From positions 682,001 through 746,000 of the forward strand of contig NZ_QENZ01000003.1 of the NCBI RefSeq assembly GCF_003096835.1: a stretch of 64,000 nt of DNA. The letters run 5' to 3'. This DNA is from Balneicella halophila. GTDB taxonomy: Bacteria > Bacteroidota > Bacteroidia > Bacteroidales > Balneicellaceae. Made by a program: the position numbers and the translations under genes. The first letter of the stretch is position 1. The number at the start of each line of letters is the position of its first letter. Shown piece by piece: positions 22,520-43,108 of the stretch. The notes under the pieces were generated by a model, which was given only the letters and a program-made list of their open reading frames with translations, was not told where the DNA came from and did no database searches.

Positions 22520-22608
22520 TGGAAAAATAGAAAAAAATCGTCTAAACATAATACTTAAGTTAATTGAGTTTGATATTTGCAAATCAGATGTTTAGATAAA
22601 GGAAAAGA

Positions 22609-22645
22609 AAAAGAGAGACATGCTGTCGAACATGTCTCTCTTTTT
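22609..22645 (+). terminator. terminator of nrdJ
   Basis: A perfect 13-bp stem, AAAGAGAGACATG with CATGTCTCTCTTT, 8-nt loop, followed by a T-rich tail. Coordinates may be off by one base. Confidence 0.9.
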
Positions 22646-22683
22646 CTTTTCTTTGATACAAACGTTTTAGCTGTAATAATTAC

Positions 22684-22691
22684 TATATTTG
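22684..22691 (+). promoter_or_regulatory. -7 promoter box of the giant protease/adhesin gene
   Basis: TATATTTG, exact TAnnTTTG, 38 nt before the ATG at 22730. It favours that ATG over the longer open frame that begins upstream in the nrdJ terminator. Confidence 0.5.
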
Positions 22692-22729: not shown

Positions 22730-25700
22730 ATGAAAAAGACTTTACTAGTTCTAGTAATTCTTGTCAGTATTTTTAACTTTTCTTTATCTGCAATAAATCT
22801 TGATGATTTAGAAAAACAAGACAAAAAAGAACAAACCAACAATTCACAGAAGTATGTGAAAATTGAATTAGAGTCGATACCTACAGCAGAAGAGCGAAAA
22901 GCGCTTGAAACTAGAGGTATTTTTCTTGTCCGTTACATTTCAGGCACAACTTATTATGCAATCGTAGAGAAGAAGCAAACTCTTCAAAAAACGAAATCAA
23001 GGACTAATGATATTGTTTCTGAAGTTAGTACGATTGACGCAAAATCTAAATTGGACAGTTATCTGAAGAAAGGGGAAATTCCTGAGCATGCTATCGTTTC
23101 AGAGGGAGTCGTGCGAATTATCGTGGCCTATTTCCCAGATACAGACCTTTCATTGATTGGATCTTATATTAAAGATAAAAAATTAAAAGATTTTGAGCTT
23201 TATAAAGCGTTCAAAATGTTCAATATAAGTATCCCATTTGATTTAGTTATAGACTTAGCTTCTCAGTCTTGGGTAAGGAAAATCGAATGTATTTCGCCTC
23301 CCTATGAGTTTAACAATATAGAAGCGCGAACAATGAACAGAGCAGAGCTGCTTTCATATACTGGAATAGGAGGTAGAGGTTTGACTGGCGAAGGTATGAA
23401 TGTGGGTATATGGGATGCCAACGTAGAAGGTCATCCTGATTTAGGTAAAAGATTACACACTCAGGAGTTTACAAGTTCAAATTCTCATGGACAGCATGTT
23501 GCAGGAACTATGGTAGGCTCAGGTTTACTAAATATTAGAGCCAGAGGTATGGCTCCAGAAGCAGAAGTTTATACTTGGAATTTCCAAAACGGAAATACTC
23601 AAGCTGAGATGCTTAGAGGTATTCAAGAGTTTGACATAGCAATCACTCAGAATTCTTATGGTATATCTAACAAATTATATTGTGAAACACCTTCTGAATA
23701 TAGGATGAACGATGAGCAATTAGATTGGTTGGTTAATAAATTTTCTTACGTGACCCATGTCTTCTCAGCGGGTAACGACCAGTATATTTGTCCTGATCAA
23801 GGTCCATACAGAACATCGACTAAACGCGTCAAGAATGCTATTTTAGTAGGTGCTGTTGATAAATATACAAATATGAGTGATTTCAGTAGCTGGGGTCCTA
23901 TGGATGATGGACGTATTCTTCCCCATGTTGTTGCAAACGGAACGGACATTCTTTCTACTGTTTACAATAACTCTTACGAACAAGAAGACTGGCAAGGAAC
24001 TTCTATGGCATGTCCTGCCATTTCTGGGTTAACAACCTTACTTTATCAACGATATAAACAAATAAATGGAGGAGAAAATCCTCTTTCTTCGTTAATAAAG
24101 GGAGCTTTACTAAATACAGCGGAAGATTTGGGAAATAAAGGTCCCGATTATCAGTTTGGTTTCGGACGTGCTGATGGAGAGAAAGCTATTGAAATTCTTG
24201 AAAAGAAACAATATTTTATTGGAAGATTAACACATGAACAATCAAACTCATATGATATCACTATTCCTGCAGGTGCTACAGAGTTGAGTGTAATGTTAGT
24301 TTGGAATGATGTGGAAGGTACTGCTGGCGATAAAGCGTTAATTAATGATTTAGATTTAAAAGTTATAAATGGTGGTTCAATCACCTATCCGTGGATATTA
24401 AATCCAGCAATCCCTGAAGAGCCAGCAATAAAAGCTGTTGACAGATTAAATAATCAGGAACAAGTAACTATTGAAAATCCTAATACTTCTTATACGATAA
24501 AAATAGAAGGTTATAAGATACCTGGTGAAGAGCAAGAGTATGCAGTGGTATATTCATACAAGATGCCAGAACTAAGAATGATTTATCCAAATGGAGGAGA
24601 AGTATTTAGTCCTGGGGAGAAGATTATGGTGCGTTGGAATAGCATCGGTTATAATGGAAATCAAAAATTAGAACTATCTACAGATGGAGGAGCTACTTTC
24701 CAAACTCTAGAGGCTGAGGTTGCAGCTGGGAAACATGATGTGCTTTTTGATGTCCCAGCTACGATTACTGACAAAGCCATATTACGTGTTACACAAGGGG
24801 GGACAATGGATGTAAGTGATTTGCCTTTTGTTATAATGGGTACACCCCAGAATCTAAAACTTACTAATTCTCCTTGTAGTGTTTCGGGATGGAATTTAGG
24901 TTGGGATGCAGTAGATGGAGCTGTAAAATATAAAATATTAAGAGCTAATCCAGCAGAAGAAACATATAGTATAATTGGAGAGTCTGCTAGCTTAAGTTTT
25001 GAACTCCCAAATTTGAGTACTGCAGAAATGAATATCTATACTGTAAAAGCAGTAGATGCATCAGGTATTGAAAGTGAGAGAGCCATCGCAGTTATTGCTG
25101 ATAATAGTGGGACGCTACCTATTACTCCAACAGCTTTACCATTTATGGAAACATTTGAACAAACACCTAGTTCATATATTGAAATAGATAAAGGAGTAAA
25201 TGTTAAACAGGAATATGTACAACTAGGTTCTTCCAGTGATCCCACCTCCAAAAGTAAGGCATTAAGTTTTGCGGGCGATAGTGAACTTACCACTTCTTGG
25301 AATTCAACTGATGTCTATGCAAATAAGGCAAATGTAGCTGAAGCAAAGATTTGTAATATAGATGCAACTAATATAACCGGGAATTTATGGCTCCGATTCG
25401 GTTCGGTTATTCAAACTACAACACCTGGAAACGCAAACTTTAGGGTTTTAATTAATGGAAATCCTGTTGCAAATAATATAGGTAGAGTTAATATTGATTC
25501 AACACCAAAAGGGCAGACTGTACAGTATTATGATTTGTCTGATTATGTAGGACAAGAATTTTCGGTAAGCATACAAACGGCTGTACGCGATACTGAAGAT
25601 CAAGTAATTTTCGCCTATATCTATATTTTAGAAGCAAAAAACGATGTTGGTATTACAAATATGATAGTGCCTGCACATTCAGGAAATTTAACGGCTGATG

Positions 25701-28700
25701 AAAAAGTCTCAATATCAATTAAGAATAATGATGGAGAGGATATATCAAATGTTCCTGTTAAATTATATTTAGAAGGACAGTTAGTCGCTGAAGAAGTTGT
25801 TGCTGGTCCTATCCCTGCTTTCAAAACCTTAGATTATACATTTGCAAGAGGAGTTGATTTAACGATTCCAAATAAACTATACGAAATAAAAGCTGAAACA
25901 GCTTTGAAAGGTGATATAAATGAGAGCAACGATATAATGATCAAAAATACCGCGAACTTTGGTGATTATTATAGAATTCCTCCTTATGAAAATTATATGC
26001 CAGTTGAAAAAACAATAACAAGTGAAATTATTAAGTTTACTGATGATGGAGCAAAAGTTCTAAATTATAGTGATAATTTCCAAGGTGGAGTTGTTTTTAA
26101 ACCACAGACTGCTGGAGCTAGAGTGAAACTTAAATTCACAGAATTTAATACGCATCCTAACGATAAAGTAATAATTCATGATGGTCCTTATGTCTCATCA
26201 CCAATTTTAGCAGTTCTTTCTGGAAATATGACTACTCCAATGGAATTTATTGCAGACAATTATTCGAATGAGTTTTTGGTGGTATTTGAATCAACAGGAA
26301 CGAATAATGAAACCGGTTGGTTAGCCGAAGTTTCAGAAACAACAGAAGAGCCAACAAATAATTTTGTTAACAATACTTTTTCATTAGAAAGAATAGATAA
26401 TTCTAATGGATATTTTACCGAGCCCCAAACTATTTATATAGAAGTTGTGAACAATTCTAATAATGCTCAAACGAATGTTGAAGTTCAATATAGAGTAGAT
26501 AAAGGAGACTGGAATACAGAAACAATTAGTTCAATTCCTGCAGGGCAAGCAGTAAAGTATGGCTTTACCAAGAAGGCAGACATCACGGTATCTCAAAAAC
26601 GATATTTTATTGAAGCACAAGTACTAAATGAGGATGTTGATCTTGAAGATAACGAAACGTCAAAATTTATTACTAATGATAGATATTGTGTTTCTAGAGT
26701 GGGAAGTTATTCTTATAAGCCTGCCATATTTATTAAACAAGTGGCTAAAGATAAAGTCTTGCATGAAACATCTTCAAAAAATGCAGAGTCCAATGTGCCT
26801 CAGTATTTTAGAGATGTGATTTTTGAAGTGTATAAAAATAAGGATGATGATAAACTTGAAGTAACTGTTAGTGCTGTAGAATTGGGCGCACTGGCTCTAT
26901 GGGTTGATTGGAATAATGACGGCGATTTTGAGGATGGCAGCGAAGCGATAGGAGAAATTGCTGTTAGTCAAGGTGTAAATACGCATAGTATTCCAATCAG
27001 TATCCCTGCATCAGTAGGAGAAGGAAACTATAATATTAGACTACGTGTAGCCTCAACTCCTAATATCACAGTATGTAAAGATGATGGCTACGGTATCAAT
27101 GGAGAAGTAGAGGATTATACCATTAAAGTTGTAAACGAATATCCTTATCCAACAGATTTATCTATTGAAGGAACAAACCTAAAAAGTGGCAATGGTCTTA
27201 CCGATTCAGAATTGGTTAAAGTAACTATTTTAAATAATGGTACAGAAACGGTTAATGAGTTTGAAGTTGCCTATAAAATCAATGGAGGATCAGAGGTGAA
27301 AGAGACTGTTTCTACTGCTATAGTACCTAATGCTTCTATAGAGTACACTTTCACAGCTGAAGCAAATTTATCCGCAGGCGGTCCATATAAAATAGAATTA
27401 TATACAATATTGGATAAAGACGATAATTCTGAAAATGATAAGTTAGTTGTTGATATTACCAATGAGGTTCCTGCTTCGGATGGTTTTTATGCTCTTGATT
27501 TTGATGGGAAAGATGATCTAGTTAACTTAGGAAGTTTGAATGATACAAATTTAGAATCTTTTACTTTAGAAACTTGGATGAATCCTAAGACAGCAGGTGG
27601 TTATGGCAGTGTTGGGTTCGGTCGTTTGTTTGAAGGAAAAGGCGCAACTGTATTTTTGGTTGCTACACATAATTTCTATCCAGAAAATTCCATTGTGATT
27701 TCAAGTATAGGAGATGGAACTTTTATGAGTCCTGCGAATACTGTAAATTATAATGTGTGGCAACATATAGCAATCAGTTTTGATGCAACGACACAGACCG
27801 TAAAACTTTTTGTCAACGGTCAAGAAACACCATTGACTGCTTATAAACCAATAACTACAGCGCCAGAAGATAACACAACGAACGAATTGTACGTAGGTAA
27901 TAGACAAGACTTACAGCGTGCATTTAACGGGATGTTAGACGAAGTGCGTGTTTGGAATATCGTCAAAAATCAAACAGATATACAATCAGGAATGTATGCA
28001 CACCAAAAAGGTGCTGCTAACTTAGTTGCAGAATTCTCTTTTGATGAAGGCTATTATAATACAAAAGTTTATAGTGATAAGCTACAAGGTACTATCATGA
28101 ATGCTGAATCACTTGATGACAGTGAGCAAAGTATCTGGGTAGAACCTACTGATCTATTATATACGATTCACTATCCTGAGCAAGTTATTGATTGGGAGGT
28201 TAATGATTATAAATGGGGAACAGAAGTAGAGCAAGGAACAGATTTAACGAATATGGTTGGGACATTTACCCCAACTTGGCCTAATGTTGTTGCTAATGTT
28301 CAAGGAACTGCCCAAATATCAGGAGTTACTAGTAATGATTTTACCAATTCAGAAAATACACCAGTTCCGTTTGAATTGGCTACTACTGTTTTTGGTAGAG
28401 ATCTACAGGAAACTTACTTGCTAACTATTGTTGAGGAGAAGAGTACCGAATGCGAATTATTAAGTATTGAAATTCCAGGTGTTGGTTTTAATCCAAATCC
28501 TATTACGCAACAGATGACTTTTGAAGTTGATGAGACAACAGATTTAACCAGTTTGACTACCAATTTTACAGTATCAAACGGTGCTACAGTATGGATTGGT
28601 GATAAACAGATAATTTCAGGTGAGAGTTTGGATTTCTCTAAACCTATTGTTTTTACAGTTGTTGCCGCCAACGGTAGAGCAACTAATGAGTATAGTGTTG

Positions 28701-31700
28701 TGTTAAAGAAAAAGCAAACCCTGACTTGGGCTGTTGGACCTAATGAAAGAGTTAAAACGTATGGAGACGTTGCATTTAACTTGACTGCAGAAACCTCATC
28801 AGAAAATCCTGTTTATTACACTTCTAGTGATGAGAATATTTTAAAAATAGTATTAGATGAAGCTCAAATAAAAGGAGTAGGAACTGTTTCTATTACGGCG
28901 AATGCTTCAGAAGATAATTCTACCATTGGGGCTGAGCCTATAACCTATACTTTCACGGTTAATAAGAAAGATCTTACGATTACTGCAGAAGATAAAGAGG
29001 TTGATTATCTAGAAGAAATTCCGGAATTAACGATGAAGTTCGACGGCTTTGCTTATTCGGAGAATGAAGAAGTGCTAGATGAACTGCCAACGATAAGTAC
29101 AACTGCTACCTTAGGTTCTGTTGCTGGAAAGTATGATATTACATTGACAGGAGGTACAGATGATAATTATAATTATATTCTTAATAAAGGCGCACTTACC
29201 ATAAAACCAACAAATGCACAGGAAGTTACTTTCGAAGTGGCTTATGAAGGTAATCCTGAAATAGGAGCTACTATAACAGTTGATGGACGTGAGATAACTA
29301 CAGGTGCCAATGGTAAAGCAAGTATTAGGTTGAATCCTGGCACGTATTCTTATAGTGTGGTAAAAGATGGTAGAGAAACTTTTGAAGGAGAACTAACTGT
29401 AGTTGATACCCCAGTTACAGAAACAGTTCCGATGATGAACTTATTGCCAAGATTTAAGATAACTTTCAAGACAGATGGTAATGGAACGATTGATGGTCCA
29501 GCAATTCAGCAAGTGAAACAAGGAACTGATGCAACTCCAGTTACAGCGAAACCAAAATTTGGTTATGTTTTCGATAAGTGGAGTGACGGTACTGCATCTG
29601 CTACTTATATTGTGAAAAATGTTGAAGCAGAGGCTACATATACTGCTACATTCAAAGCAAAAACATTTACATTACAATATCATGGTGGTGACCACGGAAC
29701 AATAGAGGGGCAAGCAAGTCAAACTGTTAGCTATAGCCAAGATGCAACAGAAGTTAAAGTTTTAGCCGAGCAGGGATATAGCTTTAAGCAATGGAGCGAT
29801 GGTAATACTGACAATCCACGTAAGGATGTAAATGTTGGTATGGATATAAATGTTACAGCAGAATATAATAAGGTATATTATGCACCATATAAACAAACTT
29901 TTCATGGAACAGAAAAACCTGCAGACTGGGCAATTACTGATAATAGCGGAGATGGTTGTGTGTGGGAGTTTAAAACGAAGTCTGAACATTATATGGCGGA
30001 ACCTCTTAAAGGTTCTTCTCCTAACTCTGCAGTCATGGATGGATATAAATGCGGCTACTCTACAGCTAATCGCTCAAGTTTAATAAGTCCATTGTTCGAC
30101 TTTTCAGACAACTCTACAATTACTTTGAAATTCAATCATGAGTTTTATAATAAATATAATAATAGTCAAGTTGGAGGACTAGCATATAAGATTGGTAGTC
30201 AAGATTGGGTCGTATTTGAAAAGTTTGATGCGCAAGTAGCTAATAATACTATTTATGAAAAGAAAATAGATGCCGTTGCTGGTCAATCAAATGTACAATT
30301 TAGTTGGACATTTGCCGATGGGTCAGGTTACTGGACTGTAGATGATATTGAAATTAAGGCAACTACGGCAGCATCTGAGTATGAGGTAGTTTATAGAGCA
30401 GGTGCTAATGGATCATTAAAGAATGCAAATCCTGACGGAACTGTTACTGCTACAGTAGCACATGGTGATGATGGACCTGAGGTATTAGCTGTCGCTGATC
30501 CGGGATATGCATTTTACCAGTGGAGTGATGGCAATACTGATAATCCAAGAAAAGATAAAGTTGTTTTTGAATTAGATGTAACAGCAGAATTTGGTAAAGA
30601 TTGTTCTTTAGCTATTGCTAAGCTTCCATATCTTGAAGATTTTAATGCGAAACAAGAAGCACCAGATTGTTGGGAAGCACCAGCTACAGCGGGTAATTTT
30701 ACTTGGGAGTTTGGAGATATGCTAATATATTCAATCCCTGTTAAATTAGGTACTACGGGCAATACTGCTTTCTTTAGCAGTGCAAAAACGAATTATGGAC
30801 AAGAAGAATCTGCTGATTTAATATCTCCAGAGTTTGATTTAAGTAATTACCCCGTGGTTTATTTATCATTTATGCACCATCATGAGTATTATGATACCAA
30901 GTCAGTAGTAAGTGTTTCTTATTCCTTAGATAAGGGGGATACATGGAATGTCATTAAATTATGGACTGGATATACTGATCAACCTGAATATTTCCAGCAG
31001 AAAGTTGATGAAATTGCAGGTCAAAGTAGTGTGATCCTTAAGTGGAATTCTACGACTACTTGGCAATTCGGATGGATTATTGATGATGTTGAGCTAAAAA
31101 CTAAACCTAATTATATGCTCAAGTACTCTGTCCCAGCTGTCAAAATTGGAGATGATTGGGTTGAATTGGGTACAATAGATGGCGAATGGTTACAATTGGT
31201 AGATGAAGGAGAAGATGGTACTTCTGTTAAAGCAATCCCTGCTAATGGATATAAATTCGTTCAATGGAGTGATGGAAGCACAGACAATCCACGTCAAGAC
31301 TTAGATGTAACACATACAATAAGTGTTGATGCTTATTTTGAGAAAATTACTAGTGGAACTACTCATACATTAACTTATGTAGCAGGCACTGGAGGAACTA
31401 TTTCAGGAACTGCAATACAAACAGTTAAAGAAGGAGAGAGCGGAACAGCAGTTGAGGCTATTCCAGATACAGGCTATGAGTTTGTGAAATGGAGTGATGG
31501 AAGTACCGACAATCCACGTACTGATACTAATGTAACAATGAATATTAATGTTACGGCAGAATTTATGAAGATTACTCCTTCTGATAAGGAATTTATATTA
31601 GATTATAGAACAGATATTGGAGGAACTCTTTATGGTACAATAACTCAAAAAGTAAAAGAAGGAGAATCAGGAACAGCAGTTGAGGCTATTCCAGATACAG

Positions 31701-34700
31701 GCTATGAGTTTGTTCAGTGGAGTGATGGAGTGATGGAGAATCCACGTGTAGATGCTGGTATAACAGCAGACATTACGGTAAGTGCAGAATTTAAAAAATT
31801 AGATTTGCCAACTGTAACTTATCCGTTGACTTATGTAGCAGGTGCTGGAGGTACACTTTCTGGTACTTTATCACAAACAGTAGAGGAAGGACAAGATGGT
31901 ACTCCAGTAGAAGCGATTGCTGACGCAAATCATGAATTTGTAAAATGGAGTGATGGAGTCACTGACAATCCTCGTATTGATGAAAATGTGTCAAGGGCAA
32001 TAAATGCTACTGCAGAATTTAAGGAAACAACTACAGTAGCTGATCCAAGTGCTACATTTACTTTGACTTATACGACAATTGCTGGGGGAGAGTTCGAAAA
32101 GTATGCATATCCTGCAGTTACAGAAAAAGTACAAAGTGTGAAATACGGAGAAGATGGTGCTCCAATCGAAGCATTCGCAGAACATGGGTACGAATTTGTA
32201 AAATGGAGTGATGGAGTTACTGACAATCCTCGTACTGATACAAATGTAACTGAGAATATTACCGTTCAGGCATTATTCACGCTTAAGATGTTCACCCTAT
32301 CTTACGATACAGATGGTAATGGAACAATTAGTGGAACTACAACGCAAACTGTACCATATGGTAAAGCAGGTAATCCTGTAGAGGCTATTGCGAATCCGGG
32401 ATATCAATTCTTAGAGTGGAGCGATGGTGAAGTTGACAATCCTCGAAGAGATTTGATAGTATTTTTAAACAGAACTGTCACAGCTATTTTTAGAGAGGTT
32501 GACACCCCTTCATCGAAATATTCATTGACTTACACAGCTGATGCGAATGGAACAATTTCTGGGGAGGCAAATCAAACGGTTATTTCTGGTAATTCTGGAA
32601 CAGCAGTTGAAGCTATTCCAAATACAGATTATAAATTTGTAAAATGGAGTGACGGTAGTACTGATAATCCAAGAACAGATACAGATGTAAGAGGAGATAT
32701 TGATATTGAAGCGATATTTGTTGGTGTTAATGAAGTATTTACTCTCAATTATAAAGACACCTATTCTTTATGGGGTGGTACTATTTCTGGAACAGCTGAG
32801 CAAACCGTAAAAGGAGGAGAGAATGGAACTCCTGTAGAAGCAATTCCTAATCCAGGTCGAACGTTTGATGGTTGGAGTGATGGAGTTTTAGATAATCCAC
32901 GCCAAGATTTACTAGTAATGAAGGATGTTGGTGTATATCCTAAATTTGGATTCCTTAAAACTTACTATTCATTAAGTTATAATGCTGGACTTGGTGGTAA
33001 TGTTACAGGTAAAACATTCCAGCGTATTACAGACATGAGTGGAACAGCATCAGGTACTCCTGTGGAAGCTGTAGCAAACTCCGGTTATGAATTTGTAAAA
33101 TGGAGTGATGGTCGTACAGAAAACCCTCGTATAGACATCAATGTTGTTGAATCATTAGCAGTAGAAGCCTTGTTTAGTCAGGTTGCTACTATTGAATTGA
33201 ACTATACCGTTGGTGAAGGTGGAACGCTTTCTGGAACCACAACGCAAGAGGTGAATAGTGGTGATAGTGGAACTCCAGTAGAGGCACTGCCAAATATAGG
33301 ATATAAATTTGTTCAGTGGAGTGATGGGGTGACTGATAATCCACGTATTGATAAAGATGTAACAGGAGAAATAAGCGTAGTTGCAAAATTTGAACTTGAG
33401 ACATATAGTGTAGTTTACGATACAGATGGAAATGGTATTATTTCTGGAAATAAGACTCAGACCGTAAGTTATGGCTCATCAAGTTCAGAAGTTACAGCTA
33501 ATGCAAATACGGACTACGAATTTTGGAAATGGAGTGATGGTCGTATCGATAATCCACGTTCTGATGAGAATGTGACTAAGGATATTTCTGTTATTGCAAC
33601 GTTTAAAAATATTGCAGTTACAGAATACACCTTGACATACATAGCAGGCACTGGTGGAACAATTTCTGGAACTGCTACTCAAACAGTTGAAGAGGGCAAA
33701 TCAGGAAGCACTGTAGAAGCACTAGCAGGTTCAGGTTATGAGTTTGTGAAGTGGAGTGATGGAGTAACGGACAATCCACGTACTGATGCAGATGTGAGTG
33801 CAAATATTTCTGTAACAGCAGAATTTGAGCTGAAAACCTACACTGTAACTTACAACACAGATGGCAACGGAACGATTTCCGGTACTGCAACACAGACCGT
33901 AAGTCATGGTTCATCAAGTACATCAGTAGAAGCACTAGCAGATTCAGGTTATGAGTTTGTGAAGTGGAGTGACGGAAGTACGGATAATCCACGAAAAGAC
34001 ACGAACGTAACTTCAGACATCAGCGTTGTTGCTGAGTTTGCTGAAATCGTAACCCCGCCAACAGAATATACATTAAGTTATACTGCGGGTAATGGTGGAA
34101 GAATTTCAGGCGAAGCTACTCAAAGAGTTGAAAAAGGCGAATCAGGAAGCACTGTAGAAGCCATTGCAGGTTCAGGTTATGAGTTTGTGAAGTGGAGTGA
34201 CGGAAGTACTGACAATCCACGAAAAGACACAAACGTAACATCAGACATTAGCGTTGTTGCTGTGTTTGCTGAAATCGTAACCCCGCCAACAGAATATACA
34301 TTAAGTTATACTGCGGGTAATGGTGGAAGAATTTCAGGCGAAGCTACTCAAAGAGTTGAAAAAGGCGAATCAGGAAGCACTGTAGAAGCCATTGCAGGTT
34401 CAGGTTATGAGTTTGTGAAGTGGAGTGACGGAAGTACTGACAATCCACGAAAAGACACAAACGTAACATCAGACATTAGCGTTGTTGCTGTGTTTGCTGA
34501 AATCGTAACCCCGCCAACAGAATATACATTAAGTTATACTGCGGGTAATGGTGGAAGAATTTCAGGCGAAGCTACTCAAAGAGTTGAAAAAGGCGAATCA
34601 GGAAGCACTGTAGAAGCCATTGCAGATTCAGGTTATGAGTTTGTGAAGTGGAGTGATGGAAGTACTGACAATCCACGAAAAGATACGAACGTAACATCAA

Positions 34701-36169
34701 ACATCAGCGTAGTCGCGGAGTTTAGTGAAATCGTAACCCCGCCAACAGAATATACATTAAGTTATACTGCGGGTAATGGAGGAAGAATTTCAGGCGAAGC
34801 TACTCAAACAGTTGAAGAAGGCGAATCAGGAAGCACTGTAGAAGCCATTGCAGATTCAGGTTATGAGTTTGTGAAGTGGAGTGACGGAAGTACTGACAAT
34901 CCACGAAAAGACACAAACGTAACATCAGACATCAGCGTAGTCGCTGAGTTTGCTGAAATCGTAACCCCGCCAATAGAATACACATTAAGTTATACTGCGG
35001 GTAATGGAGGAAGAATTTCAGGAGAAGCTACTCAAACAGTTGAAGAGGGCGAATCAGGAAGCACTGTAGAAGCCATTGCAGGTTCAGGTTATGAGTTTGT
35101 GAAGTGGAGTGACGGAAGTACTGACAATCCACGAAAAGATATGAACGTAACTTCAGACATCAGTGTAGTCGCTGAGTTTGCTGAAATCGTAACGCCGCCA
35201 ACAGAATATACATTAAGTTATACTGCGGGTAATGGAGGAAGAATTTCAGGCGAAGCTACTCAAAGAGTTGAAAAAGGCGAATCAGGAAGCACTGTAGAAG
35301 CCATTGCAGATTCAGGTTATGAGTTTGTGAAGTGGAGTGATGGAAGTACTGACAATCCACGTAAGGATACCAACGTAACTTCAGACATCAGTGTAGTCGC
35401 GGAGTTTAGTGAAATCGTAACCCCGCCAACAGAATATACATTAAGTTATACTGCGGGTAATGGTGGAAGAATTTCAGGCGAAGCTAGTCAAACAGTTGAA
35501 GAAGGCGAATCAGGAAGCACTGTAGAAGCCATTGCAGATTCAGGTTATGAGTTTGTGAAGTGGAGTGACGGAAGTACTGACAATCCACGAAAAGACACGA
35601 ACGTAACATCAGACATCAGCGTAGTCGCGGAGTTTAGTGAAATCGTAACCCCGCCAACAGAATATACATTAAGTTATACTGCGGGTAATGGAGGAAGAAT
35701 TTCAGGCGAAGCTACTCAAACAGTTGAAGAGGGCGAATCAGGAAGCACTGTAGAAGCCATTGCAGATTCAGGTTATGAGTTTGTGAAGTGGAGTGATGGA
35801 AGTACTGACAATCCACGAAAAGATATGAACGTAACTTCAGATATCAGCGTTGTTGCTGAGTTTGGTGAGATTTTGCCTAAATCCTTTAATTATATAAAGG
35901 CACCACAGATAATAACACCTGATGGTAACGGAATTAATGATAAATGGTGTCTGCCAGATTTAGAAGAACGACTTTTGAGTGGTATTAGTAACATAGTGCG
36001 CATCTTTGATAAAGAAGGAAAGGAAGTGTATCATAAAGAGGACTACATGAAAGATGGAGAGTGCTTTGATGGTGATGGACTTTCTGACGGACTTTACTAT
36101 TATGTTATTGAAGTTGAAGATGGATTCAAAACGAAAGGATTTTTCTATATTATTAGAAAGAATCCATAG
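22730..36169 (+). CDS. giant T9SS-secreted subtilisin-like protease/adhesin with InlB-type repeats
   Basis: A 4479-residue surface or secreted protein. Signal peptide 1-22; propeptide-like region; S8 peptidase about 215-450 with Asp229 (GIWDAN), His253 (HGQHVAGT) and Ser425 (GTSMACP). Then fibronectin-III-like (about 705-795), jelly-roll (800-970), CARDB-like (970-1080), CUB-like (1083-1200), GEVED (1380-1470), a second CARDB-like, LamG-like (1584-1800), two cadherin-like/DUF5018-type, MBG-type (2000-2160) and carboxypeptidase-regulatory-like (2160-2240) domains. About 24 divergent InlB B-type repeats follow, marked by WSDG-x-x-x-NPR, the early ones interleaved with two cleaved-adhesin/MAM-like domains (2384-2545, 2624-2792). 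The C-terminus (about 4383-4479, ITPDGNGINDKW) is a gliding-motility-associated sorting domain for type IX secretion. The ATG at 22730 begins a clear signal peptide. Monocistronic, with a strong terminator. Individual beta domains other than S8, GEVED, repeats and sorting domain are less certain. Confidence 0.93.
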   Translation: MKKTLLVLVILVSIFNFSLSAINLDDLEKQDKKEQTNNSQKYVKIELESIPTAEERKALETRGIFLVRYISGTTYYAIVEKKQTLQKTKSRTNDIVSEVSTIDAKSKLDSYLKKGEIPEHAIVSEGVVRIIVAYFPDTDLSLIGSYIKDKKLKDFELYKAFKMFNISIPFDLVIDLASQSWVRKIECISPPYEFNNIEARTMNRAELLSYTGIGGRGLTGEGMNVGIWDANVEGHPDLGKRLHTQEFTSSNSHGQHVAGTMVGSGLLNIRARGMAPEAEVYTWNFQNGNTQAEMLRGIQEFDIAITQNSYGISNKLYCETPSEYRMNDEQLDWLVNKFSYVTHVFSAGNDQYICPDQGPYRTSTKRVKNAILVGAVDKYTNMSDFSSWGPMDDGRILPHVVANGTDILSTVYNNSYEQEDWQGTSMACPAISGLTTLLYQRYKQINGGENPLSSLIKGALLNTAEDLGNKGPDYQFGFGRADGEKAIEILEKKQYFIGRLTHEQSNSYDITIPAGATELSVMLVWNDVEGTAGDKALINDLDLKVINGGSITYPWILNPAIPEEPAIKAVDRLNNQEQVTIENPNTSYTIKIEGYKIPGEEQEYAVVYSYKMPELRMIYPNGGEVFSPGEKIMVRWNSIGYNGNQKLELSTDGGATFQTLEAEVAAGKHDVLFDVPATITDKAILRVTQGGTMDVSDLPFVIMGTPQNLKLTNSPCSVSGWNLGWDAVDGAVKYKILRANPAEETYSIIGESASLSFELPNLSTAEMNIYTVKAVDASGIESERAIAVIADNSGTLPITPTALPFMETFEQTPSSYIEIDKGVNVKQEYVQLGSSSDPTSKSKALSFAGDSELTTSWNSTDVYANKANVAEAKICNIDATNITGNLWLRFGSVIQTTTPGNANFRVLINGNPVANNIGRVNIDSTPKGQTVQYYDLSDYVGQEFSVSIQTAVRDTEDQVIFAYIYILEAKNDVGITNMIVPAHSGNLTADEKVSISIKNNDGEDISNVPVKLYLEGQLVAEEVVAGPIPAFKTLDYTFARGVDLTIPNKLYEIKAETALKGDINESNDIMIKNTANFGDYYRIPPYENYMPVEKTITSEIIKFTDDGAKVLNYSDNFQGGVVFKPQTAGARVKLKFTEFNTHPNDKVIIHDGPYVSSPILAVLSGNMTTPMEFIADNYSNEFLVVFESTGTNNETGWLAEVSETTEEPTNNFVNNTFSLERIDNSNGYFTEPQTIYIEVVNNSNNAQTNVEVQYRVDKGDWNTETISSIPAGQAVKYGFTKKADITVSQKRYFIEAQVLNEDVDLEDNETSKFITNDRYCVSRVGSYSYKPAIFIKQVAKDKVLHETSSKNAESNVPQYFRDVIFEVYKNKDDDKLEVTVSAVELGALALWVDWNNDGDFEDGSEAIGEIAVSQGVNTHSIPISIPASVGEGNYNIRLRVASTPNITVCKDDGYGINGEVEDYTIKVVNEYPYPTDLSIEGTNLKSGNGLTDSELVKVTILNNGTETVNEFEVAYKINGGSEVKETVSTAIVPNASIEYTFTAEANLSAGGPYKIELYTILDKDDNSENDKLVVDITNEVPASDGFYALDFDGKDDLVNLGSLNDTNLESFTLETWMNPKTAGGYGSVGFGRLFEGKGATVFLVATHNFYPENSIVISSIGDGTFMSPANTVNYNVWQHIAISFDATTQTVKLFVNGQETPLTAYKPITTAPEDNTTNELYVGNRQDLQRAFNGMLDEVRVWNIVKNQTDIQSGMYAHQKGAANLVAEFSFDEGYYNTKVYSDKLQGTIMNAESLDDSEQSIWVEPTDLLYTIHYPEQVIDWEVNDYKWGTEVEQGTDLTNMVGTFTPTWPNVVANVQGTAQISGVTSNDFTNSENTPVPFELATTVFGRDLQETYLLTIVEEKSTECELLSIEIPGVGFNPNPITQQMTFEVDETTDLTSLTTNFTVSNGATVWIGDKQIISGESLDFSKPIVFTVVAANGRATNEYSVVLKKKQTLTWAVGPNERVKTYGDVAFNLTAETSSENPVYYTSSDENILKIVLDEAQIKGVGTVSITANASEDNSTIGAEPITYTFTVNKKDLTITAEDKEVDYLEEIPELTMKFDGFAYSENEEVLDELPTISTTATLGSVAGKYDITLTGGTDDNYNYILNKGALTIKPTNAQEVTFEVAYEGNPEIGATITVDGREITTGANGKASIRLNPGTYSYSVVKDGRETFEGELTVVDTPVTETVPMMNLLPRFKITFKTDGNGTIDGPAIQQVKQGTDATPVTAKPKFGYVFDKWSDGTASATYIVKNVEAEATYTATFKAKTFTLQYHGGDHGTIEGQASQTVSYSQDATEVKVLAEQGYSFKQWSDGNTDNPRKDVNVGMDINVTAEYNKVYYAPYKQTFHGTEKPADWAITDNSGDGCVWEFKTKSEHYMAEPLKGSSPNSAVMDGYKCGYSTANRSSLISPLFDFSDNSTITLKFNHEFYNKYNNSQVGGLAYKIGSQDWVVFEKFDAQVANNTIYEKKIDAVAGQSNVQFSWTFADGSGYWTVDDIEIKATTAASEYEVVYRAGANGSLKNANPDGTVTATVAHGDDGPEVLAVADPGYAFYQWSDGNTDNPRKDKVVFELDVTAEFGKDCSLAIAKLPYLEDFNAKQEAPDCWEAPATAGNFTWEFGDMLIYSIPVKLGTTGNTAFFSSAKTNYGQEESADLISPEFDLSNYPVVYLSFMHHHEYYDTKSVVSVSYSLDKGDTWNVIKLWTGYTDQPEYFQQKVDEIAGQSSVILKWNSTTTWQFGWIIDDVELKTKPNYMLKYSVPAVKIGDDWVELGTIDGEWLQLVDEGEDGTSVKAIPANGYKFVQWSDGSTDNPRQDLDVTHTISVDAYFEKITSGTTHTLTYVAGTGGTISGTAIQTVKEGESGTAVEAIPDTGYEFVKWSDGSTDNPRTDTNVTMNINVTAEFMKITPSDKEFILDYRTDIGGTLYGTITQKVKEGESGTAVEAIPDTGYEFVQWSDGVMENPRVDAGITADITVSAEFKKLDLPTVTYPLTYVAGAGGTLSGTLSQTVEEGQDGTPVEAIADANHEFVKWSDGVTDNPRIDENVSRAINATAEFKETTTVADPSATFTLTYTTIAGGEFEKYAYPAVTEKVQSVKYGEDGAPIEAFAEHGYEFVKWSDGVTDNPRTDTNVTENITVQALFTLKMFTLSYDTDGNGTISGTTTQTVPYGKAGNPVEAIANPGYQFLEWSDGEVDNPRRDLIVFLNRTVTAIFREVDTPSSKYSLTYTADANGTISGEANQTVISGNSGTAVEAIPNTDYKFVKWSDGSTDNPRTDTDVRGDIDIEAIFVGVNEVFTLNYKDTYSLWGGTISGTAEQTVKGGENGTPVEAIPNPGRTFDGWSDGVLDNPRQDLLVMKDVGVYPKFGFLKTYYSLSYNAGLGGNVTGKTFQRITDMSGTASGTPVEAVANSGYEFVKWSDGRTENPRIDINVVESLAVEALFSQVATIELNYTVGEGGTLSGTTTQEVNSGDSGTPVEALPNIGYKFVQWSDGVTDNPRIDKDVTGEISVVAKFELETYSVVYDTDGNGIISGNKTQTVSYGSSSSEVTANANTDYEFWKWSDGRIDNPRSDENVTKDISVIATFKNIAVTEYTLTYIAGTGGTISGTATQTVEEGKSGSTVEALAGSGYEFVKWSDGVTDNPRTDADVSANISVTAEFELKTYTVTYNTDGNGTISGTATQTVSHGSSSTSVEALADSGYEFVKWSDGSTDNPRKDTNVTSDISVVAEFAEIVTPPTEYTLSYTAGNGGRISGEATQRVEKGESGSTVEAIAGSGYEFVKWSDGSTDNPRKDTNVTSDISVVAVFAEIVTPPTEYTLSYTAGNGGRISGEATQRVEKGESGSTVEAIAGSGYEFVKWSDGSTDNPRKDTNVTSDISVVAVFAEIVTPPTEYTLSYTAGNGGRISGEATQRVEKGESGSTVEAIADSGYEFVKWSDGSTDNPRKDTNVTSNISVVAEFSEIVTPPTEYTLSYTAGNGGRISGEATQTVEEGESGSTVEAIADSGYEFVKWSDGSTDNPRKDTNVTSDISVVAEFAEIVTPPIEYTLSYTAGNGGRISGEATQTVEEGESGSTVEAIAGSGYEFVKWSDGSTDNPRKDMNVTSDISVVAEFAEIVTPPTEYTLSYTAGNGGRISGEATQRVEKGESGSTVEAIADSGYEFVKWSDGSTDNPRKDTNVTSDISVVAEFSEIVTPPTEYTLSYTAGNGGRISGEASQTVEEGESGSTVEAIADSGYEFVKWSDGSTDNPRKDTNVTSDISVVAEFSEIVTPPTEYTLSYTAGNGGRISGEATQTVEEGESGSTVEAIADSGYEFVKWSDGSTDNPRKDMNVTSDISVVAEFGEILPKSFNYIKAPQIITPDGNGINDKWCLPDLEERLLSGISNIVRIFDKEGKEVYHKEDYMKDGECFDGDGLSDGLYYYVIEVEDGFKTKGFFYIIRKNP
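34073..35870 (+). repeat. eight-unit 228-bp in-frame tandem repeat array
   Basis: Units start at 34073, 34301, 34529, 34757, 34985, 35213, 35441 and 35669, exactly 228 bp (76 codons) apart, with no length variation. They differ at only a few positions, mostly as switches between two versions: RVEKGE or TVEEGE, GSGYEF or DSGYEF, EFAEI or EFSEI, VAVF or VAEF. The 3' half of the preceding unit (from about 33930) already matches. Upstream units (29.4-33.9 kb) encode the same fold but are strongly diverged. Confidence 0.97.
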
Positions 36170-36333: not shown

Positions 36334-37155
36334 TTAAAAGAAATCCGTAAATTGCATTAAGTCCATTCTTGGGTTTACGCACATTACAGGAATCTTATAT
36401 TCATTACCAATTACAAATTCTTCATCCGCACCGATAAGATGATCAAGCAACGAAAGATGTTCTGAGGTCATAATCATTAAAATATCAGCGCCCGTTCTAT
36501 GCGTATATTCTATGAGGGATTCACGAAATGCTACACCTTTAGGGGCTAAGGTTGTCTTTCGATGAATTTTGAATCTGTCAAGATATCGTTTGGCAAATAA
36601 ATAATTCGCTTTAGTATCAGCACGTTCTTCGATATTATGTTCATTTTGAACAAATAATTCTACTCTTATATTAAAATAGTTACTTAAAACACGTACCCAG
36701 CGAAGCTTTTGCTTATTGTGGAAATCAAAACTAATAGGAATGACTATCTTTTTTAAGGTTTTGAAATGAGGTTTATCTCTCACTACCAAGAATGGGACTA
36801 TTCCTCCCATCACAATCTTTAGCGTTTGACCTCCAAATATTCTTTCAAAACCTTGCAAAGGATTTTTGGTGCCGATGATAACTAATAATGCTCTTGAATA
36901 CTCTGCATATTGTTTTATGCTACTGGCAAGATTACCTTTAATTAGAGCAACTTCGATATCATAATCATAAGTATATTCCTTACGCTTATTCTCTAGTCTG
37001 GATTCTAGTTTAGGCTTATTTCTATCATTAGAGTAAATATGTAACATAACAATTTTTGCCTGCATGGGATTCCCAATAATAAGTGCATGATCCATTGCAT
37101 TATCACCTCTTTCAGTGAAGTCATACGCGACTATAATTGTTTTTTTCTTCTTCAT
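36334..37155 (-). CDS. universal stress protein, two tandem UspA domains
   Basis: A 273-residue cytoplasmic protein made of two UspA folds. The first (about 1-140) opens with KTIIVAYDFTERGDNAMDHAL and ends with VIIGTKNPLQG...GGIVPFLVVRDKPH. The second (about 145-273) opens with KKIVIPISFDFHNKQKLRWV and ends with GNEYKIPVMCVNP. The ATP-binding G-2x-G-9x-G motif is incomplete in both halves, so nucleotide binding is doubtful. The family is linked to stress and growth arrest; the role here is unknown. It is monocistronic. Confidence 0.88.
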   Translation of the reverse strand: MKKKKTIIVAYDFTERGDNAMDHALIIGNPMQAKIVMLHIYSNDRNKPKLESRLENKRKEYTYDYDIEVALIKGNLASSIKQYAEYSRALLVIIGTKNPLQGFERIFGGQTLKIVMGGIVPFLVVRDKPHFKTLKKIVIPISFDFHNKQKLRWVRVLSNYFNIRVELFVQNEHNIEERADTKANYLFAKRYLDRFKIHRKTTLAPKGVAFRESLIEYTHRTGADILMIMTSEHLSLLDHLIGADEEFVIGNEYKIPVMCVNPRMDLMQFTDFF

Positions 37156-38475: not shown

Positions 38476-41400
38476 ATGAAAAAATTAATCCTGTTTGTTG
38501 CGATATTGTTGTTAACTACGATATCGTTTGCGCAGACGGTTGTGAAAGGTCGGGTTGTAGATGCGCAAGGCGAATCTATTCCCGGGGTCAGTGTACTGGA
38601 ACAAGGTACAACAAATGGAGTTACTACTAATATTGATGGAACTTTTTCACTTACTGTCAAAAAAGATGCCAAACTAATATTTTCATTTGTAGGAATGAAA
38701 GAGCTTGTGGTTTCTGTTGATGGCAGAAATTGGCTTGATGTTACTTTAGAGGAATCTGTAGCAGCCTTAGATGAAATTGTTGTTGTCGGTTATGGAGTAC
38801 AGCGAAAAAGTGATGTTACCGGATCGATAGCATCAGTAAAGTCAGAGGAATTAGAGAAAATTTCCGGAGCTAGTGCGGTTCAGGCACTTCAAGGACAAGT
38901 TGCGGGTGTACAAATTACCTCAGCAACAGGTTCACCTGGATCTGCTGCTACTGTATTAATTCGTGGACGTGGTACAGTAGGTGATTCTTCACCATTGTAT
39001 GTAATTGATGGATTAGCTGTGGGAGATATCAGTTTCTTAAATACTAAGGATATTCAATCTATAGAAGTATTAAAAGATGCTTCTGCTACAGCAATTTACG
39101 GAGCACGTGGTGCAAATGGGGTTGTGCTCATAACCACAAAACAAGGGAAAGCTGGAGAAATGCAGGTAACTTATGATGGATACTATGGCGTTCAATCAGT
39201 ATGGAATGAACCAGACTTATTAGATGCTCAAGAATGGATTGATGTGCAAAATCAAGCTCGTGCTAATGCTGGTGAAGCAAACTTAGATTTAAAACCTGGA
39301 GCTGATAATCCTAATCACACAACTGATTGGTTTGACGAAATTACTCGAAATGCAATCGTGCAAGATCATAATATTCGTATTTCCGGAGGTGGCGAAAACC
39401 TAAAAGCTACATTGAGTGGAAACCTATATGACCAAGAAGGTTTGATTGAAGGTTCAGATTACACACGCTACTCATTAAGAATCAATAGTGAAGCAAAATT
39501 AAGCAACTATGTAACTGTAGGTGAGAATTTATCAATAACACAATCAAAGAGACATAGTATTTTGGAAGGAAACTACTTTAATGGTATTGTGAATGCAGCC
39601 TTAAAATTAGATCCTATAACACCAGTGAAAAATGCTGACGACGAATACATGTCATCACCTTATACTGATGTGATGAACCCGGTTGCTCATATTGAAAATA
39701 CCAACGATGAACGTAAGTATCAAAGATTAGTCGGTAATATCTATGCCGATGTAAAATTACTTCCAAACCTGGTTTATCATTCATCTTATGGAATGGATAT
39801 TAACGATGTGGATTTTTATGATTTTAATCCAACCTATTTTTACGCGATTGATGAAAAGAATGAAGTGAACAGTGTTACACGTAGTCATACTAAAACAACA
39901 CTTTGGAATTGGATTAATACTTTGACTTATATGTTTGAGGTAGATAAACATTCATTTACACTAATGGGTGGTATGGAGGCAACTGAAAGTGACACAGAAT
40001 GGTTTTCTGCTTCTAAAAATAATGTTCCATCTAATGAAGATTATCTAAGATTTTTAAGTGCTGCTTTAGGAGATGAGAATGGTATGGGAACTGCATCAGG
40101 CTCGCTTAGCGAGTGGTCAATGTTATCATACTTTGGACGTTTAAATTATAATTATGATAATAAATACTATCTGACAGCTAATTTACGACATGATGGTTCA
40201 TCTAAATTTGGTAAGGATAAGCGCTGGGGAACATTCCCATCTGTTGCTTTAAAATGGAAAATTTCGAATGAAACATTCTTCCAGCCTATGGCAGAAAACG
40301 GAACTTGGACAAGTGCAGCCCTTCGTGCTGGATGGGGTCAAGTAGGTAATGATAAGATTTCACTTTATCAATACACAACTGCTGTAAGTAATAATAAACA
40401 GTATGGGTACGTTTTTGGTAAAGATCAAAGATTATATTATGGTGCGACTATTGAGGGGATCGGTAATCCATCGATTCATTGGGAGACTGTAGAGTCCACA
40501 AATATTGGTTTAGACTTAGCTTTCTTAAATAACAGGTTAGGCGTAACTTTTGATTGGTTTAACAAGAAGACCAAAGAAATGTTATTACGCGAACCAATTC
40601 CTGATTTTGTAGGTTATACCTCTTCACCTTATAGTAATGTAGGTGATGTCGAAAATAGAGGTTGGGAATTGTCTTTAAATTATAAAGGTAGCCCAACGGA
40701 TGATTTATCTTATAACTTAGGAATCAACTTAGGTAGAGCGAAAACAGAAGTGTTAGATTTAGGTGAAGTTGATTTCCTAAGTGCAGGTTTCGTAAGAATT
40801 GATAATGCAACAAGAACTGAAGTTGGCAATGAGATAGGTGCTTTTTATGGATATGTAACTGATGGTATATTCCAAACCCAAGCTGAGATTGATAGTCATG
40901 CTACACAATCAGGAGCACAGCCTGGAGATATCCGCTTTAAGGATCTAAATGACGACGGGAAAATTGATGCAGAAGATAGAACTTTTATAGGGTCACCTTA
41001 TCCAGATTTAACTTATGGATTCAATTTAGGAATTAACTATAAAGACTTTGATTTCTCAATGTTTTGGCAAGGAGTTTATGGCAATGACTTATTCAATTTT
41101 ATGATTTTCGAAACTATGAATCCAGGTAAAACAACCAATAAATATACTGATATTTTAGATAGCTGGAATGGTCCTGGAACTTCAAACAGTGTACCTCGTT
41201 TATCAACTCAAGACACCAATGACAACCTTAGAGTGTCTGACAGATATATTGAAGATGGTTCATACCTACGCTTGCGTAATATTCAATTAGGCTATAGCTT
41301 GCCAGTTGAAGTAACCGATAAGTTACGAGTAAATAGAGTTCGTTTGTATGTTGCAGCACAAAATCTTTTTACCATTACTGATTATTCAGGTTTAGATCCT

Positions 41401-41496
41401 GAGATTGGTAGATATGATAGTCTTTCTATCGGAATCGATGAAGGGATATTCCCTCACGCTCGCACATGGATGATAGGTGCAAACATTACATTTTAA
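38476..41496 (+). CDS. SusC/RagA-family TonB-linked outer-membrane transporter
   Basis: A 1006-residue receptor. Signal peptide 1-20 (ISFAQ), carboxypeptidase-regulatory-like domain about 22-100 (VVKGRVVDAQGESIPGVSV), TonB box LDEIVVVGYGVQRKSDVTGS near 108-127, plug with the SusC signatures LIRGRGT and VLKDASATAIYGARGANGV, then a 22-strand barrel ending in MIGANITF. The family forms a lidded pair with a SusD lipoprotein to import glycans or peptides. The partner SusD gene follows after 18 nt. No glycoside hydrolase or regulator is adjacent, so the substrate is unknown. Confidence 0.96.
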   Translation: MKKLILFVAILLLTTISFAQTVVKGRVVDAQGESIPGVSVLEQGTTNGVTTNIDGTFSLTVKKDAKLIFSFVGMKELVVSVDGRNWLDVTLEESVAALDEIVVVGYGVQRKSDVTGSIASVKSEELEKISGASAVQALQGQVAGVQITSATGSPGSAATVLIRGRGTVGDSSPLYVIDGLAVGDISFLNTKDIQSIEVLKDASATAIYGARGANGVVLITTKQGKAGEMQVTYDGYYGVQSVWNEPDLLDAQEWIDVQNQARANAGEANLDLKPGADNPNHTTDWFDEITRNAIVQDHNIRISGGGENLKATLSGNLYDQEGLIEGSDYTRYSLRINSEAKLSNYVTVGENLSITQSKRHSILEGNYFNGIVNAALKLDPITPVKNADDEYMSSPYTDVMNPVAHIENTNDERKYQRLVGNIYADVKLLPNLVYHSSYGMDINDVDFYDFNPTYFYAIDEKNEVNSVTRSHTKTTLWNWINTLTYMFEVDKHSFTLMGGMEATESDTEWFSASKNNVPSNEDYLRFLSAALGDENGMGTASGSLSEWSMLSYFGRLNYNYDNKYYLTANLRHDGSSKFGKDKRWGTFPSVALKWKISNETFFQPMAENGTWTSAALRAGWGQVGNDKISLYQYTTAVSNNKQYGYVFGKDQRLYYGATIEGIGNPSIHWETVESTNIGLDLAFLNNRLGVTFDWFNKKTKEMLLREPIPDFVGYTSSPYSNVGDVENRGWELSLNYKGSPTDDLSYNLGINLGRAKTEVLDLGEVDFLSAGFVRIDNATRTEVGNEIGAFYGYVTDGIFQTQAEIDSHATQSGAQPGDIRFKDLNDDGKIDAEDRTFIGSPYPDLTYGFNLGINYKDFDFSMFWQGVYGNDLFNFMIFETMNPGKTTNKYTDILDSWNGPGTSNSVPRLSTQDTNDNLRVSDRYIEDGSYLRLRNIQLGYSLPVEVTDKLRVNRVRLYVAAQNLFTITDYSGLDPEIGRYDSLSIGIDEGIFPHARTWMIGANITF

Positions 41497-41514
41497 TTTT
41501 AAACAAGAGAAGCA

Positions 41515-42975
41515 ATGAAAATATATAAAATTTTAATATTGATAGGTTTTCTGATCGCAGGATTCTCCTGTTCTGATGATTTTCTAGAAAAATCTCCAAA
41601 AGGGGAAGAAAGTGCAGATCAGTTCTACAAAACAAAAAGAGGGATTGATGCACAGATAATTGCAGCATATTCCGAATTGAAAAACTACAGATACGCCTCT
41701 AATCGATTCTTCCTAGGTGATGTCGCTTCAGACGATGCTACTAAAGGAAGTGAGCCTGGTGACTTTGTTACAGCTAAAGAAATAGAGGAGTTCCGTGCCA
41801 CAGCATCTAACTTTCAATTTGGAACTTGGTGGTGGACGAGGATTTACCGAGGGATTTTTTATGCTAACGTAGCTATATCTAACATTGATGAGCTTGAAGA
41901 TGTGACCGAGTCCGAAAAAAATCAACTCTTAGCTGAAGCTAGATTTTTAAGAGCTTATTATTATTCTGAGTTAGTAAGGTCTTATGGTGGAGTTCCGCTG
42001 CGTACTGCACCTGATCAACCAATAGATCAACCAAGAGCTTCTGCTGAAGAAGTTTATAACCTGATTGAGGAAGACTATAGTTTTGCTATACAGAACTTGC
42101 CTGAGAAGTCACAATACCCTGCAGAAGATATGGGACGTGCTACAAAAGGAGCAGCTCAAGCTTTATTAGGAAAGGTATATTTATACCAAGAAAAGTGGCA
42201 ACAAGCAAAAGAAGCTTTTCAAAAAGTGATAAATTCTGGTGAATATTCGTTAGATCCTTCTTACAGTTCTATGTTTACTGTAGCTGGTGAAAATGGTGTC
42301 GAGTCTATTTTTGAAATACAGTTTTTTGAAAGTGAGTCCGAAGCAGATACATGGCGAAATGGGGGTAATTTTACAACAGTTTTCATTATGCCTAGAAATA
42401 TTTGGGGATGGGGTATAATGCAACCAACACAGGCATTGTATGATGCTTATGAAAGTGGCGACCCAAGACGAGAAGCTACAATTATCCTAAGAGGAGAGGT
42501 GATAGAAGGAGAAGTACAAGAGGGCAGTGATGATCAAACTGGTTTATATAGCCGAAAAGACTTCTTACCACCTTCAGAAAGACCTGTCTTAAATGTGAAA
42601 AATAGTCCATTAAATGAGATTATTATCCGTCTGGCTGATGTTTATTTAATGTATGCTGAAGCTGCTTATCATCTTGGTGATGAAACAACGGCTAAAATGT
42701 ACGTAAATATGGTAAGAGAAAGAGCGCGTAATGGAGACAATACTATTCTTCCAGATGTTACTGCTAGTGGTACTGCTTTATTAGATGCAATTTATCACGA
42801 GCGTAGAGTGGAGTTGGGTCTTGAGCATCACCGTTATTGGGACGTTATACGTACGGGACGCGGACAAGAGTTATTACATCCAAACTTTACTCCTGGGAAG
42901 CATGAATTGTTCCCTATACCACAGTCAGAAATTGATGCATCAAAAGGTGTTTTGACTCAGAATCCCGGTTACTAA
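41515..42975 (+). CDS. SusD/RagB-family nutrient-binding outer-membrane lipoprotein
   Basis: A 486-residue surface lipoprotein with a lipobox-like IAGFSC (Cys near 19) and the SDDFLEKSP start typical of SusD. TPR-like helices (about 60-320) include NQLLAEARFLRAYYYSELVRSYGGVPL, the strongest SusD signature. The C-terminal part contains VYLMYAEAAYHLGD, ERRVELGLEHHRYWDVIRTGR and LFPIPQSEID, all family hallmarks. It acts as the lid of the SusC transporter encoded just upstream. It ends at a strong hairpin terminator. Confidence 0.96.
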   Translation: MKIYKILILIGFLIAGFSCSDDFLEKSPKGEESADQFYKTKRGIDAQIIAAYSELKNYRYASNRFFLGDVASDDATKGSEPGDFVTAKEIEEFRATASNFQFGTWWWTRIYRGIFYANVAISNIDELEDVTESEKNQLLAEARFLRAYYYSELVRSYGGVPLRTAPDQPIDQPRASAEEVYNLIEEDYSFAIQNLPEKSQYPAEDMGRATKGAAQALLGKVYLYQEKWQQAKEAFQKVINSGEYSLDPSYSSMFTVAGENGVESIFEIQFFESESEADTWRNGGNFTTVFIMPRNIWGWGIMQPTQALYDAYESGDPRREATIILRGEVIEGEVQEGSDDQTGLYSRKDFLPPSERPVLNVKNSPLNEIIIRLADVYLMYAEAAYHLGDETTAKMYVNMVRERARNGDNTILPDVTASGTALLDAIYHERRVELGLEHHRYWDVIRTGRGQELLHPNFTPGKHELFPIPQSEIDASKGVLTQNPGY

Positions 42976-42997
42976 CAGTTAATTATATTCGATTCTA

Positions 42998-43036: not shown

Positions 43037-43108
43037 CTTAATCATTAACATTTAGTTAAATAATATGAACTTTATTGTTTTGATATAATACTCTTCTAAA
43101 ACTTATTG

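Follow-up and report, generated by a model that had tools for sequence, protein, structure and literature searches.

The giant protein encoded at positions 22730 to 36169 of the DNA analyzed here (the window, 64,000 nucleotides from Balneicella halophila) belongs to a known family of secreted proteases, of which it is an extreme variant. All of its parts are of known kinds, and relatives share most of the architecture of its head and trunk; carried on this head, the stalk of 24 units and the type B tail of the type IX secretion system (T9SS) make a new variant. We consider it probable that the protein is a tethered, self-activating enzyme, with a KP-43-type subtilase at the far end of a very long arm on the cell surface. 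An earlier note on this DNA had proposed a surface protease on a long arm, and this is still the likely reading. The features of the gene and its upstream region are as follows.

22603 to 22650, no strand assigned: strong stem-loop (20 pairs) with T-rich sides, between nrdJ and the giant protease gene.
22684 to 22691, plus strand: TATATTTG, a -7 box look-alike, read from the sequence.
22730 to 36169, plus strand: whole gene, 4479 aa, 488.5 kDa.
22730 to 22789, plus strand: signal-peptide-like N-terminus, residues 1 to 20 (from sequence, by eye).
22793 to 23314, plus strand: N-terminal pro-domain, residues 22 to 195, conserved in relatives.
23390 to 24166, plus strand: S8 catalytic domain, residues 221 to 479 (Pfam Peptidase_S8, E = 6.9e-38, over cut-off).
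24197 to 24619, plus strand: KP-43-like jelly-roll domain that follows the catalytic domain (model, 1wmd match).
24647 to 25999, plus strand: beta modules including a weak CARDB, residues 640 to 1090 (blastp to relatives, slice Pfam).
26003 to 26419, plus strand: CUB domain, slice 1092 to 1230 (22.8 bits against a cut-off of 21.4, isolated slice).
26402 to 26899, plus strand: CARDB-like module, under cut-off.
26891 to 27124, plus strand: GEVED domain, residues 1388 to 1465 (Pfam over cut-off, whole protein).
27152 to 27505, plus strand: CARDB-like module, under cut-off (21.8 against 22.7 bits).
27503 to 27985, plus strand: Laminin_G_3 (LamG) domain, residues 1592 to 1752 (Pfam over cut-off, whole protein).
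28067 to 28759, plus strand: DUF6242/DUF5018-like region, under cut-off, the end of the core shared with Flavobacterium.
28973 to 29200, plus strand: MBG_2 domain, residues 2082 to 2157 (Pfam over cut-off, whole protein).
29201 to 29464, plus strand: CarboxypepD_reg-like module, under cut-off (31.4 against 32.3 bits).
29453 to 35866, plus strand: 24 InlB B-repeats, with W at residues 2284 to 4354, broken by two adhesin-like modules (Pfam, unit profile).
29882 to 30409, plus strand: Cleaved_Adhesin-like module, weak (15.5 against 21.4 bits).
30584 to 31129, plus strand: Reelin_subrepeat-B-like module (25.4 against 27 bits).
33926 to 35868, plus strand: recent tandem array of 228-bp units (TRF).
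35897 to 36151, plus strand: CHU_C type B T9SS sorting tail, residues 4390 to 4474 (Pfam PF13585).

The open reading frame (ORF) at 22730 to 36169 begins with ATG and has no internal stops. The mechanical ORF start is a TTG at 22577; the ATG at 22730 instead yields an N-terminus that looks signal-like by eye. The scan lists the upstream stem-loop on the minus strand only, and the plus-strand sequence is likewise T-rich on its 3' side. This terminator-like element suggests that the giant protease gene is probably its own transcription unit. The sequence TATATTTG resembles TAnnTTTG, which we take to be the Bacteroides -7 box. Directly downstream of the giant protease gene, a Usp-family protein gene lies on the opposite strand (36334 to 37155, minus strand), and positions 38476 to 46344 of the window hold a SusC/SusD-like pair followed by genes for a TonB-plug protein and a DUF4249 protein.

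The head of the protein is a complete S8 protease, as the earlier note had recognized. The catalytic positions D229, H253 and S425 and the oxyanion Asn (N349) are all present, and they do not vary in any of the 94 aligned sequences, a sample that is biased because the relatives were gathered by similarity and in which one gene is entered twice (L147 and L053). These sequences comprise the giant protease itself, 80 named loci (the best 80 of at least 542) and 13 sequences from the genomes with G handles. Loss of the S8 triad in relatives was looked for in this set and was not found. An AlphaFold model of residues 22 to 640, for which the input alignment held 45 sequences (the window and 44 of 48 qualifying named loci), has a mean pLDDT of 85.5 and a pTM of 0.72; in the pro-domain, confidence is low in the first 16 residues and at residues 170 to 173 of the modelled fragment. 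The best PDB match to this fragment by sequence is KP-43 (1wmd; E = 1.6e-27), which is also ranked first by Foldseek (E = 2.6e-32). The alignment with 1wmd spans residues 223 to 584 of the 619-aa fragment and covers both the catalytic domain and the jelly roll. Based on the triad, the oxyanion Asn and a jelly roll directly C-terminal to the catalytic domain, we conclude that the head is an S8 subtilase of the KP-43 subfamily, with predicted activity.

The pro-domain (residues 22 to 195) has no Pfam match. SpBcA and SpBcB of Bergeyella cardium, like the giant protease, have an S8 KP-43 domain, a non-I9 pro-domain and a T9SS CTD (PMC11982257), and SspA of Riemerella is likewise a T9SS subtilisin (PMC10202324). 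For these proteins, the portions of the two papers on which we draw mention PKD, cleaved-adhesin or choice-of-anchor J domains and do not mention an InlB stalk. PMC11982257 also reports that such a KP-43 protease, putatively T9SS cargo, can be active and can activate itself.

Between the protease and the tail, four modules other than InlB repeats reach a curated Pfam cut-off: GEVED, LamG and MBG_2 in the whole protein and CUB in an isolated slice. The number of at least 10 different beta-sandwich domains suggested in the earlier note is plausible, but only these four attain the cut-off; of the CUB-, LamG-, GEVED- and MAM-like modules that it named, the first three are among them. In the whole protein, DUF5018-rel and Reelin_subrepeat-B are both under cut-off, as are the CARDB-like modules, Cleaved_Adhesin, Reelin_subrepeat-B and CarboxypepD_reg in isolated slices. 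The chain of CUB, CARDB, GEVED and LamG modules probably consists of binding modules.

The domain search of the whole protein, which recovers S8, GEVED, LamG, MBG_2 and CHU_C, also finds 24 tandem stretches of Flg_new_2 (InlB B-repeat; E = 2.4e-203), in agreement with an earlier estimate of about 24. WSDG units likewise number 24, with a spacing of 71 to 76 residues in 20 of 23 cases, and all 24 PF18998 matches in the source genome fall within this ORF. The array detected by TRF at 33926 to 35868 contains 8.5 copies of a 228-bp unit (95% matches; score, 3382), which is far above chance. The last eight InlB units (W at 3822 to 4354) differ at 0 to 17 of 228 bases. Among 11 older units (W at 2921 to 3675), adjacent units resemble each other no more closely than the rest do (50% versus 52% identity). 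This indicates recent growth of the array at the C-terminal end, a duplication that the earlier note had not mentioned; on the anchor model given below this end would be the membrane side. Of the 25 variable codons in the last eight units, 16 vary only synonymously, indicating that the repeat sequence is under constraint.

The count of near-identical units hinges on the assembly, and two of the units are identical over 228 bp, as might be expected if the 8.5-copy array were mis-assembled. We regard an artefact of this kind as very improbable. The frame is kept across all units, the rest of the last eight are 6 to 17 bases apart per 228 with the mostly synonymous variation just described, and the 16 units outside the last eight are well diverged. 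A PDB search with InlB units gave nothing at E ≤ 0.01. Structure prediction by segment, which the earlier note had proposed, succeeded for residues 22 to 640 but not for the last 332 residues, for which a single-sequence fold had a mean pLDDT of 43.7 and was discarded; the repeat and tail folds are thus taken from Pfam only. Our search of the open-licence literature found no paper on InlB B-repeats with type IX secretion, and no title among the matches listed concerned such a fusion.

The C-terminus matches CHU_C (PF13585) at 51.3 bits against a cut-off of 27 (E = 1.3e-13) and aligns with the other CHU_C tails of the genome. The T9SS sorting tail reported in the earlier note is therefore real, and by its CHU_C match it is of type B, which that note had not said and which changes the anchoring model: secretion with anchoring on PorP is predicted. 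The NCBIfam type B model TIGR04131 is covered in full at 26.2 bits against a cut-off of 35, which is an annotation threshold and does not define the class. PorP-like proteins appear to anchor type B cargo without the involvement of PorU or PorV, and the PorP complex can be fastened to peptidoglycan by a PorE partner (PMC9143113); such cargo is probably uncleaved (PMC10202324).

We searched the source genome (2,089,523 bases in 11 contigs, 98.2% complete) for T9SS parts. Both parts expected in a genome with type B cargo, the SprA translocon (2410.9 bits) and a PorP/SprF protein (a single one, 262 bits), are present. The PorP/SprF gene is adjoined by a gene for a PorE-like OmpA protein (278 bits to the PorE model, cut-off 600). 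The sole PorP gene found is ~125 kb from the giant protease gene, so the pairing of cargo and PorP has no support from linkage, which is usual for type B cargo and not defining. Type B cargo depends on PorP/SprF shuttles, and in F. johnsoniae unlinked cargo is known to be able to share one shuttle (PMC12618676). The genome has seven CHU_C matches, six of them over cut-off, of which one (a 2350-aa ORF) drops to 20.7 bits, under cut-off, when the protein is re-scanned. Among the other CHU_C-tailed proteins (L061, L063, L064 and L062) are a 2837-residue ORF carrying DUF7507/DUF11 repeats and short ORFs in which Ig_7 or TSP3 is matched in addition to the tail.

Parts for type A cargo seem scarce in this genome. 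There is one type A tail (30.2 bits against a cut-off of 27; NCBIfam, 23.4 against 23). PF01364, which represents the whole C25 family and not PorU alone, has no match in the source genome; it has matches in 54 of 59 other genomes searched (all except G008, G011, G018, G057 and G058) and in 0 of 14 named control genomes. The PorV family model NF033709, which also takes in PorQ, reaches 69.7 bits at best, under its cut-off of 90, and is over cut-off in 8 of 9 chosen other genomes, with scores of about 357 bits or higher in six. Since the coordinates in G047 and G003 put the C25 and PorV genes near each other, a single assembly gap could hide both here; the scarcity of type A tails is independent support for missing type A parts, the gap argument aside. 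The T9SS of the source genome (G000; C3, C4 and C5) appears to be type-B-only. Two genomes of the same order, G018 and G057, have PorV-family matches of 421 and 455 bits, yet neither has a C25 match. We dropped the idea that a T9SS without PorU is unheard of, given these two genomes and a report that Sphingobacteriia are without PorU, PorQ or PorZ (PMC7323717).

Tails are readable in 71 of the best 80 named relatives (nine were left out because the 3' end is open or residues close to it are unknown); 60 of the 71 match a type A tail model and 2 match CHU_C (best E = 2.3e-5). Type A is the class that PorU cleaves, and one KP-43 enzyme has been shown to break down gelatin and fibrinogen in vitro (PMC11982257), as would suit a nutritional protease that is secreted by the T9SS, loses its tail and is shed with its binding modules, the repeats being a linker only. 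We think it unlikely that the giant protease is released in this way, because its tail is CHU_C, because no C25 sortase was found in the genome and because a stalk of ~2100 residues would be costly for a soluble enzyme.

The scan of named genomes gave at least 585 pattern matches, of which at least 542 encode a relative, and the best 80 were kept. The S8 region lies within an ORF in all 80. When these were compared by blastp with pieces of the giant protease (E ≤ 1e-3), the pro-domain was matched in 29, the 640-1090 region in 41, CUB in 5 and LamG in 4; the InlB profile matches one of the 80, weakly (L120, best unit 8.6 bits). S8, 640-1090, CUB, LamG and 1780-2000 occur in order in three, all from Flavobacterium: L071 (F. 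sp. Leaf82), L072 (F. sp. 7A) and L073 (F. collinsii CECT7796). These T9SS subtilases are 41 to 44% identical to the giant protease over S8 and jelly roll, and they also share the pro-domain and a CARDB module in the same order. By sequence, residues ~22 to 2000 are thus collinear with these ~2300-aa proteins. In contrast to the 4479 residues found here, their ORFs have 2300 to 2321; unlike the giant protease they have no InlB profile match, their GEVED is unmatched by blastp (weak in Pfam for L071) and their tail is of type A (seen individually for L071) rather than type B.

At E ≤ 1e-10, the profile of the InlB unit has matches in 30 of 393 genomes, the source genome among them. We inspected 20 loci from 18 of the other 29; eight long repeat ORFs among them end at a contig or stretch end, so S8-InlB fusions can be missed and all fusion counts are lower bounds. 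An ORF with both S8 and InlB was found in 2 of the 20, L156 (G316:C124, 1231 aa, five units) and L167 (G193:C112, 3187 aa, three units), both with a type A tail over cut-off. G091, which is outside the 30 matched genomes, still carries S8 and three units (L185; C6, 3466 aa). In G193, L186 (S8, contig C46) and L165 (InlB, four units, contig C125) overlap exactly over 99 bases at contig ends, and are probably one gene split by the assembly, a second S8-InlB gene in that genome.

L167 and L185 share most of the head and trunk and have an InlB pair at the place matching the giant protease, with three units each by profile rather than 24. Residues 36 to 2406 of the giant protease align with 62 to 2569 of L167 (25% identity, E = 9e-144), in which the LamG match is under cut-off. 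L185 has no CUB match, a CarboxypepD_reg-rich stalk and no Pfam match to a T9SS tail. The shorter L156 is 30% identical in its S8 region and has no CUB, GEVED or LamG match. We dropped the view that S8, InlB and T9SS parts together are unique, since L156, L167, L185 and L186/L165 carry comparable parts. Nor does the earlier statement that no homologous architecture is known hold, given the Flavobacterium proteins and the S8-InlB proteins with T9SS tails in other Bacteroidales. The search for S8, repeats and a sorting domain together, which the earlier note had called for, found them in L156 and L167. The stalk varies (InlB here, mostly CarboxypepD_reg-like in G091) while most of the head and trunk is kept, which we read as selection for a spacer.

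SprB of Flavobacterium johnsoniae is comparable to the giant protease in its great size, its repeats, its surface location and its type B tail, and it has a PorP/SprF partner (PMC9143113), as is predicted here. SprB is a gliding adhesin whose partner gene is adjacent, whereas the PorP gene here is unlinked; the common ground is the type B tail and repeats only, and a gliding role is not implied. To our knowledge, SprB has no protease domain. The giant protease could be mainly an adhesin in the manner of SprB, with an S8 head whose role is limited to maturing or trimming the arm or neighbouring proteins of type B, itself included. InlB repeats together with CUB, LamG and adhesin-like modules make up most of its mass, and its S8 match is the only one in the source genome. 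Against this, the triad is invariant throughout the alignment and most of the aligned proteins lack InlB repeats, which indicates that conservation falls on the enzyme and variation on the arm. We therefore doubt that adhesion is the main role.

The tethered, self-activating surface protease that we favor builds on the observed modules, intact triad, KP-43 fold, tail class and genome complement, from which its secretion route, anchoring, binding and substrate are predicted. The N-terminal signal would direct Sec export. If SpBcA of Bergeyella is a guide, the ~175-residue pro-domain would hold the enzyme inactive until it cleaves itself. By virtue of its C-terminal tail of type B, the protein would pass through SprA and be collected by the PorP/SprF-family barrel of the genome, and the uncleaved tail would stay bound to PorP, probably tied to peptidoglycan via the PorE-like neighbour. 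Because the C-terminus would then sit at the membrane, the InlB repeats would form the spacer nearest to it, with the CUB/CARDB/GEVED/LamG chain and then the protease farther out. The net effect would be that the cell keeps the enzyme while extracellular protein is digested or processed at a distance. A contact-dependent weapon, in which a long filament delivers the protease to adjacent cells, would share the length and the tip position; none of the families matched around the gene points to this, and we find it hardly credible.

More tentatively, and with considerable doubt, we raise the idea that the T9SS of this lineage was reduced to a type-B-only form (SprA, PorP and a PorE-like protein) through loss of PorU, of PorV and of almost every type A tail, and that an ancestral PorU-cleaved subtilase became permanently tethered through a swap of type A for type B tail and a longer arm. 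The lone S8 head may then have assumed some of the surface maturation carried out by PorU.

These proteins look like a natural experiment in tail choice. Comparable heads bear type A tails, which are cut and then released or LPS-linked, in 60 of the 71 readable relatives, versus a type B tail here, in a genome seemingly without the parts that process type A. It thus becomes testable whether the class of the tail is enough by itself to determine if the enzyme is released or tethered. One conserved head carries stalks of different folds, and one of these stalks has grown by recent tandem duplication.
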